DNA from: Buchnera aphidicola (Chaitophorus sp. 3695)
Lineage (GTDB): Bacteria; Pseudomonadota; Gammaproteobacteria; Enterobacterales; Enterobacteriaceae
Direction of reading: 5' to 3'
NCBI RefSeq assembly: GCF_964058985.1
Contig: NZ_OZ060379.1
Coordinates: 310,001 to 374,000 of the forward strand
Length of the DNA: 64,000 nt
Shown piece by piece: positions 3,288 through 35,942 of the stretch (position 1 is the first letter of the stretch; each line of letters starts with the position of its first letter). The notes below the pieces were generated by a model, which ran no database searches, had not been told where the DNA came from, and saw only the letters and a list, made by a program, of their open reading frames with translations. Made by a program: the position numbers and the translations under genes.

Positions 3288-3378
3288 TACCGAGGACGGG
3301 ACTTGAACCCGTACATCTAATGTTATTTTAGATACTACTACCTCAAAGTAGCGTGTATACCATTTTCACCACCTCGGT
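3288..3378 (-). tRNA. leuU: tRNA-Leu (anticodon GAG)
   Basis: A cloverleaf with a 7-bp acceptor stem (ACCGAGG with CCTCGGT), discriminator A, and an anticodon stem CTACT/AGTAG around a TTGAGGT loop, giving anticodon GAG. It has a long class II variable arm, as expected for leucine, and an intact T-loop GGTTCAAGTCC. It lies just downstream of secG, the same order as E. coli secG-leuU. The 3' CCA is not encoded and must be added by the CCA enzyme. Confidence 0.97.
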
Positions 3379-33340: not shown

Positions 33341-34439
33341 ATGAAAATAATTAAAAAAATTTTAAAAAAAATTTTAAAATATTCTACTAAATTTAAAAAA
33401 ACTAAGGAATATCTTTAAATTAACAAAATATCAAGAAAAATCTAAAGAAATTAATAAAAAATTAGAAAATAAAAAAAATTGGAAAAAAATAAATTTAATT
33501 ACAAATCTTAATAAAAAAAAAAAATATATTAATAAAAAAATGAATTTATTAATATCTATAAAAAATGAATTAAAAGAAAATAAAAATTTATTAAATTTAT
33601 CTCATGAACTTAATGATTTATCAATATTACATGAAATTAAAAAAAATTTATCCAAAATAAAAAATCAAATTGAAAATTTAAATTTTTATAATATGTTTAA
33701 AAAAGAATATGATAAAAAAAATTGTTATATTGAAATTCAATCTGGATCTGGTGGAATAGAAGCTCAAGACTGGTCTAAAATGTTATTTAAAATGTATTTA
33801 AAATGGGCTCAAAAAAAAAATTTTAACACTAAAATAATTTCAGTATTATATGATGAATTTAATGGTATAAGATCTGCTACTATTCAAATTAAAGGACAAT
33901 ATTCATTTGGATGGCTGAGAACAGAGTCAGGAATACATCGATTAATACGTAAAAGTCCTTTTAATACAGGAAATAAAAGACATACTTCTTTTAGTTCAAT
34001 TTTCGTTTATCCTATTATTAAAAAAAATAAAAAAATTAACATTAAAAAATCAGATTTAAAAATAGATGTATATAAAGCTTCTGGAGCAGGAGGCCAACAT
34101 GTAAATAAAACAGAATCAGCTGTTAGAATCAAACATATACCAACTGGAATTATTGTTAAATGTCAAAATAATAGATCTCAACATAAAAATAAAAAATATG
34201 CAATTCAACAAATCATTTCAAAAATTTTTACTATGCAATTAAAAAATCAAGCTTTAAAAAAAAAAGAGATCGATTTTAAAAAGTTAGAAATTAATTGGGG
34301 AAATCAAATTAGATCATACATATTAGATGATTCTCGTATTAAAGATGAAAGAACGAAATTAGAAACGAGAAATACACAAAAATTTTTAAATGGAAACATC
34401 AATAAATTTATTAAAAAAAGCTTAAAACTAGGATTATAA
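33341..34439 (+). CDS. prfB: Peptide chain release factor RF2 with programmed +1 frameshift
   Basis: RF2 ends translation at UGA and UAA. A short zero-frame leader starts at ATG 33341 and runs 25 codons to CTT then TAA (33416-33418). The body continues in the +1 frame from AAA 33417 to 34439. Joined, the product is 365 residues, exactly the E. coli length, and the shift falls at the same codon (stop at codon 26). Body motifs: SGSGGIEAQDWSKML, the GGQ region ASGAGGQHVNKTESAV, and NRSQHKNK. The codon-recognition tripeptide position reads SPF, typical of RF2. Reading from the later ATG at 33540 would lose the N-terminal domain. Confidence 0.96.
33404..33419 (+). promoter_or_regulatory. RF2 recoding (+1 frameshift) site with a UAA stop
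   Basis: An internal Shine-Dalgarno-like AAGGA (33404-33408) stands at the same distance from the slippery CTT (33413-33415) as AGGGGG in E. coli. The zero-frame stop is TAA, whereas the textbook site is CTT TGA C. A slip of the CUU-decoding tRNA to UUU gives AAA as the next codon. Confidence 0.9.
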
Positions 34440-34442
34440 AAT

Positions 34443-35942
34443 ATGAAAAAAAAAATTAAAAAAATTCCCTTTAAAAAAAAAGATACAAATAACGAATTTA
34501 TAAATAGAAAATTAAAACTAAAAGAACTAAAAAAAAAAGGATTTAACTTTCCAAATAAATTTCAAAAAAAACATTATTTTAATCAAATATATATTAAATA
34601 TAATTCTCAAAATAGAAATGAACTTCAAGATAATCAAAATAACATTCAAACCGCAGGAAGAATAATCCAAAAAAGAATTATGGGTAAAGCAATTTTTATG
34701 CGTTTACAAGATTCTGAAGGAGAAATTCAAATATATTCTAAACAAAATTCTTTAACTTCTAAAACCAATAATTTTAAAAAATTTAAAAGTCTTGATTTAG
34801 GAGATATTATAGGAGTAATTGGTATAATTTTTAAAACTAAAACGAATGAATTAACTATACATTGTCAAAAATTTATTTTATTAACAAAAGCACTTAGACC
34901 TCTTCCAGAAAAATTTCATGGATTAGTAAATAAAGATACAAGATATAGAAAAAGATACTTAGATTTTATTTCTAATAATAGTTTAAAAAAAACATTTCAA
35001 ATACGATCTAAATTAATATCTATGATTAGAAATTATATGCATAAAAAAAAATTTTTAGAAGTAGAAACACCTATGTTACATAATCTTCCTGGAGGAGCTA
35101 TTGCTAAACCTTTTATTACATATCATAATTCTTTAAGCAAAAAAATGTATTTAAGAATTGCTCCGGAATTATATTTAAAACGTTTAATTATAGGAGGATT
35201 TGAAAAAATATTTGAAATTAATAGAAATTTTAGAAATGAAGGTGTATCTTCACGTCATAATCCAGAATTTACAATGATGGAAATATATATTGCTTACTCT
35301 AATTATAAATATCTAATGAAATTTTTAGAAAATTTAATGCAATATTTATCAAAAAAAATTCACCATAATTATATAATTGAATATAAAAAAAATTTTTTTG
35401 ATTTAAGTAAACCATTTTTAAAACTAACAATGAAAGAATCTATTATTAAATTTAATAATTTTATAGATCCAAAAGATTTAAAAAATTTAACTCAATTAAA
35501 AAAAATTACAAATAAATTACAATTAAAAATTAAACATACATGGGGAATAGGAAAAATTATTACAGAAATATTTGAAAAAACAGTAGAAAAAAAACTTATA
35601 AATCCAACTTTTATTACAGAATATCCAATAGAAGTATCTCCTTTAGCAAGAGAAAAGAATCACGATAAATATTTTTCTGACAGATTTGAATTTTTTATTG
35701 GAGGTTATGAAATAGGAAATGGATTTTCAGAATTAAATGATCCTACAGAACAAAAGAAAAGATTTAAAATGCAAAATAAAAAAAAAAAATACGATAAAGA
35801 TTATATATTAGCTTTAGAACATGGTATGCCTCCTACAGCTGGATTAGGTATTGGAATTGATCGATTAACCATGATTTTTACAAATCAAAAAAACATTAAA
35901 GATGTCATAATGTTTCCTAATATGAGATTTATTAAAAAATAA
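34443..35942 (+). CDS. lysS: Lysyl-tRNA synthetase
   Basis: A class II synthetase that charges tRNA-Lys, in heavy demand given the lysine-rich proteome. The 499 residues compare with 505 in E. coli. The N-terminal OB fold includes GRIIQKRIMGKAIFMRLQD. The catalytic core has FLEVETPMLHNLPGGAIAKPF, motif 2 FEINRNFRNEGVSSRHNPEF, and motif 3 GLGIGIDRLTM. It follows prfB with a 3-bp gap, as in E. coli prfB-lysS, so the two are co-transcribed. Confidence 0.98.
   Translation: MKKKIKKIPFKKKDTNNEFINRKLKLKELKKKGFNFPNKFQKKHYFNQIYIKYNSQNRNELQDNQNNIQTAGRIIQKRIMGKAIFMRLQDSEGEIQIYSKQNSLTSKTNNFKKFKSLDLGDIIGVIGIIFKTKTNELTIHCQKFILLTKALRPLPEKFHGLVNKDTRYRKRYLDFISNNSLKKTFQIRSKLISMIRNYMHKKKFLEVETPMLHNLPGGAIAKPFITYHNSLSKKMYLRIAPELYLKRLIIGGFEKIFEINRNFRNEGVSSRHNPEFTMMEIYIAYSNYKYLMKFLENLMQYLSKKIHHNYIIEYKKNFFDLSKPFLKLTMKESIIKFNNFIDPKDLKNLTQLKKITNKLQLKIKHTWGIGKIITEIFEKTVEKKLINPTFITEYPIEVSPLAREKNHDKYFSDRFEFFIGGYEIGNGFSELNDPTEQKKRFKMQNKKKKYDKDYILALEHGMPPTAGLGIGIDRLTMIFTNQKNIKDVIMFPNMRFIKK

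Follow-up and report, generated by a model that had tools for sequence, protein, structure and literature searches.

The prfB gene of Buchnera aphidicola (Chaitophorus sp. 3695) raises the question of whether a +1 programmed frameshift site can still serve as a regulatory switch when its leader ends in UAA, in place of the RF2-only stop UGA. The site lies in the window, i.e. the whole stretch of 64,000 nucleotides that was analysed (positions 310001-374000 of a genome of 472,039 bases), and coordinates refer to the forward strand of this window unless stated otherwise. The zero-frame leader of 25 codons (MKIIKKILKKILKYSTKFKKTKEYL, 33341..33415) opens with ATG at 33341 and closes at codon 26 with TAA (33416..33418, followed by A), where family comparison finds TGA in most relatives. 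The slip codon CTT (Leu, 33413..33415), which a +1 slip would convert to TTT, stands directly 5' of this stop, and the SD-like element UAAGGA (33403..33408) can form six Watson-Crick pairs with the 3' end of 16S rRNA; the anti-SD pattern was found in one copy in each of the 11 genomes of the window's genus. The frame reached by the +1 shift (33417..34439, with its closing TAA at 34437-34439) encodes a complete RF2 with SPF and GGQ motifs, which was assigned to family TIGR00020 (414 bits, cut-off 370), and its 340 residues and the 25 leader codons add up to a protein of 365 residues. The gene lysS (lysine--tRNA ligase, annotated by search, 34443..35942) lies directly 3' of prfB, as it does in E. 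coli.

These features had been read in a preliminary description of the DNA (a 25-codon leader with its stop at codon 26, a slippery CUU, a prfB frameshift site with UAA, a 365-residue joined protein), and the leader-stop observation is confirmed together with them. Near the shift point the RF2 frame offers no ATG, GTG or TTG as a start, the first being ATG at 33540, so that full-length RF2 requires a change of frame. The zero-frame cassette codons AAG and CTT are rare in this genome (4.0% of Lys codons and 7.5% of Leu codons, respectively), and their presence at the right places, combined with the family geometry, puts the site beyond chance.

The cassette was compared with the known forms of prfB. 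It shares the 25-codon leader, CTT, the SD-like element and RF2 in the +1 frame with the E. coli and general site (AGGGGG TAT CTT TGA C), but has UAA for UGA, A for C after the stop, and Lys instead of Asp as the first residue in the +1 frame. An SD-like AAGGA with E. coli spacing had been described: the element is present, but the spacing differs, because the best pairing is made by UAAGGA, 1 nt nearer the P site than in E. coli and than in 45 of 46 less AT-rich relatives (anti-SD C4 opposite -7, not -8). Among the features of the prfB motif, the slip codon (CUU, rarely UUU) is CTT here and the stop (UGA or UAA, never UAG) is TAA, and the C that usually follows the stop, which is not a defining feature, is absent (TAAA). 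With TAA as leader stop and prfA in the genome, the stop is not RF2-only and the site is not filed under the canonical RF2-specific (UGA) autoregulatory switch; its slip and stop codons are those of the CTTTAA sub-type of the motif. Single-ORF prfB genes, from which the frameshift has been lost, share gene and protein with the window and have neither a leader stop nor a need for frameshifting.

The translation machinery required for such a site is encoded. RF1 competition at UAA had been proposed, with a check for prfA elsewhere in the genome: the genome has a match to the RF1 gene at its positions 148559-149569, which allows RF1 to compete for the leader stop. The window carries tRNA-Leu(GAG) (3288..3378, reverse strand), the expected reader of CUU and slipping tRNA, and also tRNA-Leu(UAG). 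The residue before SGAGGQ in RF2 is Ala in the window (Ala in 79 and Ser in 22 of 101 rows), and Baggett 2017 (PMC5373646) describes the Ala variant, in E. coli, as sharing UAA decoding with RF1. Ribosome densities given there for two RF3-bearing E. coli strains are 83 and 87 for prfA and 737 and 526 for prfB, i.e. about 6-9 times higher for prfB, and by analogy RF2 may still be dominant in UAA termination in the window organism. In pieces spanning about 94% of the genome, 353 ORFs of at least 100 aa end in TAA (298), TAG (28) or TGA (27), which makes UAA the main task of both release factors; the demand for RF2 and for its regulation may be small, UGA closing just 27 of these ORFs. The prfA genes of the 11 genomes of the window's genus (L014-L024) end in TGA in 10 cases, though TGA is rare there. 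These 10 stops overlap the ATG of the following ORF, which would explain their retention, and where the RF1 gene ends in TGA, RF1 synthesis depends on RF2.

We consider it probable, at roughly three chances in four, that the prfB +1 programmed frameshift in the window works and belongs to the UAA sub-type, with feedback from both RF2 and RF1. The cassette elements, an intact RF2 under purifying selection, the genes for RF1 and the tRNA, the anti-SD and UAA at the same site in related genomes are observed; slippage, its efficiency and the feedback are what we infer. Once ribosomes had translated the 25 leader codons, CUU would occupy the P site and UAA the A site, with UAAGGA bound to the 3' end of 16S rRNA; RF1 or RF2 would then terminate in competition with the slip of tRNA-Leu(GAG) from CUU to UUU, which would place AAA in the A site and yield the 365-residue RF2. 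RF2 would retain feedback on its own synthesis while RF1 added to termination, and with RF1 taking part the switch would report total UAA-release capacity, not RF2 alone; it is plausible that the feedback is weakened or altered at this site. On the simplest account, the variant would have originated by an AT-biased G-to-A change, RF2 still reading the new stop and the loop surviving with RF1 as a second input. UAAA combines a stop and a context expected to give strong termination, and with the SD in a shifted register the efficiency of the predicted frameshift could be low.

A count of UGA and UAA across related strains, which had been called for, gave three TAA (G000, the window's genome, with G005 and G009) and eight TGA in the 11 genomes of the genus, the three forming one clade in the RF2 tree (support 100/100). 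The cassette with TAA is identical in G005 (L026, from Buchnera aphidicola of Chaitophorus viminalis), whose RF2 is 86% identical and which is the nearest of the named relatives found, and the SD of G009 is slightly different. RF2 of the UAA genomes is intact and under purifying selection (over the RF2 body, the three give dN of 0.059-0.070 and dS of 0.27-0.33); the leader, with few sites, gave no clear purifying selection among the same genomes. With UAAA and a shifted SD, the window cassette, also that of G005, is one of the least canonical UAA cassettes; its SD pairing nevertheless exceeds that of seven of the eight UGA sisters in strength. Duplex energies were -6.0, -6.0 and -7.3 kcal/mol in the three UAA genomes of the genus, against -7.3 kcal/mol in the UGA sister G004 and -4.2 kcal/mol or weaker in the remaining ones.

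For the survey of the family, RF2 5' ends from 101 genomes were classified by script: 92 of the 149 family genomes were read (90 outside the window's genus, G000 and G009), the further nine were genus members, and the unread genomes are all of at least 2.7 Mb except G061, G087 and G112. The script returned 67 TGA, 15 TAA, no TAG and 19 genes without a site. One of the latter, L097 (G111), does carry a site, CTT TGA C at an atypical offset, which the AT-rich counts below do not include; after this correction 18 of 101 genes are without a recognisable site, most of them with the leader fused in frame. Among the 82 scripted sites, the stop lies 224 codons 5' of GGQ in 75, a 25-codon ATG leader is present in 75, and the slip codon is CTT in 76, TTT in five and GTT in one; TAG was found as leader stop neither here nor among the 52 sites of the genus-level sets. 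All 46 sites at loci above about 38.5% GC are TGA C, and the 36 sites at AT-rich loci (below about 38.5% GC) comprise 15 TAA and 21 TGA. On the RF2 tree (78 of the 101 rows), TAA takes 12 changes (bootstrap trees range from 10 to 12), of which five or more lie on well-supported branches, in a tree that is weak (37 of 75 inner branches open, bootstrap unsettled, many rows of odd composition); a tree of the 36 AT-rich sites only gave 11 changes.

The best surviving alternative, though an unlikely one, is that the site is a constitutive relic: UAA together with RF1 would have removed the useful feedback, slippage would proceed at a fixed rate and the site would persist by inertia. That RF1 reads UAA, that AT-biased mutation favours G to A and that the window cassette has neither the 4th-base C nor the canonical SD register all fit such a relic. 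The further claim that it cannot be lost fails on the 18 family genes without a recognisable site, and the frequency of loss in relatives indicates that inertia is not forced. Loss takes 15 changes on the RF2 tree (78 rows, L097 being mislabelled as lost), at least four of them well supported. Among the 19 scripted-siteless genes, 14 have an in-frame ATG for RF2 that precedes GGQ by 248-251 codons. This is close to where the leader used to start (25+224 = 249) and is what fusion of the frames would produce. Only two of the 19 retain an SD-like string at the matching place, which speaks for a working element where the site is present. According to Lim 2026 (PMC13245932), single-nucleotide deletions that remove the frameshift arise in laboratory lines with reduced frameshifting.

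The fate of UGA at the site also speaks against a relic. Gene ends were compared in reciprocal pairs, using symbiont stretches with genomes with and without the site pooled and G104 left out: E. coli genes ending in TGA have symbiont counterparts ending in TGA in 11 of 65 cases (51 TAA, 3 TAG), and those ending in TAA have a TGA end in 31 of 278, so that gene ends have lost most trace of the ancestral stop. At the frameshift site, TGA stands in 21 of the 36 AT-rich cases, against 11:51 (TGA:TAA) at gene ends (Fisher p=5e-5, relatedness ignored; the same p with L097 included). With relatedness likewise ignored, the comparison gave 8/11 against 2:20 in the window's genus (p=4e-4) and 13/25 against 9:31 outside it (p=0.018). 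There is thus still a tendency for TGA to stay at the site, with UAA as a tolerated departure. The retention may reflect either the RF2-only stop or the Asp/Glu that UGA forces after the shift, to which part of the excess is perhaps due, and the two are not separable here: Asp/Glu follows the shift position in 5 of 16 lost-class rows with a letter (one of them L097), against the 21 of 36 AT-rich sites (p=0.13). Gene-end TGA retention was 7/22 in UAA-site and 3/34 in UGA-site genomes (p=0.07, TAG left out).

Low UGA usage was considered as the driver of UAA and rejected: UGA use overlaps between the two site types in AT-rich family genomes, and the genus of G098 shows the opposite (UGA ends in 2 of 78 ORFs from five UGA-site genomes and in 33 of 245 ORFs from 13 UAA-site genomes, p=0.006). 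That UAA at the site is not predicted by UGA usage counts on the side of the relic.

Two genus-level sets were read in addition, both of which we guess, from size and GC, to be aphid symbionts as well. In the genus of G083 (36 genomes), every one of the 30 prfB genes extracted has TGA. For the 24 genomes of the G098 genus, the script gave 16 TAA, four TGA and four without a site; reading of the last four gave TGA in L261, frame fusion in L282 and L283, i.e. loss of the site in two of 24 genomes, and TAA in L275, inferred from the translation beside an N-run that breaks the gene and kept outside the counts of 16. On the tree of this genus the TGA rows form one starred clade and the lost rows another, and TAA takes two changes. 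The codons AGG GGG stand in frame at 15 of the 16 scripted UAA sites, where AGG and GGG make up about 4% of Arg and Gly codons, and such retention of G-rich SD codons in very AT-rich genomes weighs against a relic. On sequence grounds it is a better sign of constraint than the contrast between cassette and leader, which was not significant in the 16 UAA rows (invariant positions 10/12 in the cassette and 31/57 in leader codons 2-20, p=0.10) and to that extent suits a relic; downstream of the cassette 16 of 30 positions are invariant, and mean identities are 0.979 (cassette), 0.916 (leader) and 0.925 (downstream). These comparisons suggest that reduced symbiont genomes have acquired UAA more than once and that most of a group can retain it. 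A more ambitious extension, tentative and on balance doubtful, would make UAA prfB a distinct stable switch state with pooled RF1 and RF2 sensing, of repeated origin in insect symbionts, selected across most of a genus and tolerated where a strong SD (and a 4th-base C) offsets the better stop.

The evidence that a stronger SD or a C in the 4th position provides such an offset is suggestive only. SD pairing scores differ between UAA and UGA sites over all 36 AT-rich sites (p=0.004) and less clearly outside the window's genus (p=0.07; duplex energy p=0.053, hexamer energy p=0.10), and outside that genus the 4th base is C at 9/12 UAA and 3/13 UGA sites (p=0.017). Supported branches supply five phylogenetically independent pairs, a number with which no significance is reachable, and the window's own clade, with UAAA, runs counter to compensation by the 4th base.

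Slippage of RNA polymerase at the A-run upstream of the shift point, which would restore the frame in place of the ribosome, is highly improbable. Poly-A slippage is known in Buchnera, and an A7 run lies within a 38-nt stretch open in both frames; the longest A-run, however, varies from 6 to 9 within the genus, whereas CTT is present in 11/11 and an SD-like AGG or AAGG in 9/11 of its genomes. A sequencing or assembly error at the leader stop, for which nothing speaks besides the rarity of UAA, can practically be dismissed, since the window shares the TAA with two related assemblies, at the same place in three assemblies of related species on one 100/100 branch.

UAA at the prfB site is already known as a rare variant. 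The consensus YTT_TRA_C is given in Antonov 2013 (PMC3711429), and Prince 2025 (PMC12421855) finds CTTTAA in 1.4% of the 8,164 genomes with the motif. It is described there as poorly tolerated, scattered at random and without broad fixation in clades, and early surveys are credited with one non-TGA case. In contrast to that picture, UAA is concentrated here in AT-rich symbiont genomes and occurs in most of one 24-genome genus. No report of UAA prfB sites in Buchnera was found in the open-access literature, as far as its text was available, and within the same limits it is, as far as searched, new that UAA is concentrated in symbionts, originated more than once and persists in most of one genus. 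The reason for the conservation of prfB autoregulation is still debated in both Lim 2026 (PMC13245932) and Prince 2025 (PMC12421855). Symbionts in which UGA gave way to UAA several times, with relatives that lost the site several times, are a natural experiment on this textbook case and allow a direct test of selection on RF2-specific sensing versus a merely weak leader stop.

Class-wide, a strict-pattern search of 369 genomes, which misses degenerate cassettes (the window's own among them) and in which TAA matches only were counted, gave two matches, one of them in prfB; the prfB of the other genome is located elsewhere. The prfB match, L315 (G364), comes from a gammaproteobacterium of ~2.2 Mb and is a canonical cassette with TAA at a locus of 57% GC, so the UAA variant is not confined to AT-rich symbionts.

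Several family sites depart from the usual form in other ways. The slip codon is TTT for CTT in L069, L084, L106, L080 and L081, with TAA in L069 and L084; in the available part of Prince 2025 (PMC12421855) TTT is reported solely with TGA. In L063 (G017), L003 (G006) and L107 (G141) CTT TGA is present and the SD-like element is nearly gone. L102 (G131) has the slip codon GTT and an ATG in the RF2 frame right after an SD-like AGGAGG, which may allow internal initiation. L099 (G126) carries a TGA inside the RF2 frame where relatives have Trp, which may reflect recoding, decay or error. The RF2 frame of L079 (G062) is without the usual start at the expected place and is likely to have its leader in another frame beside long A-runs, possibly a case of polymerase slippage.
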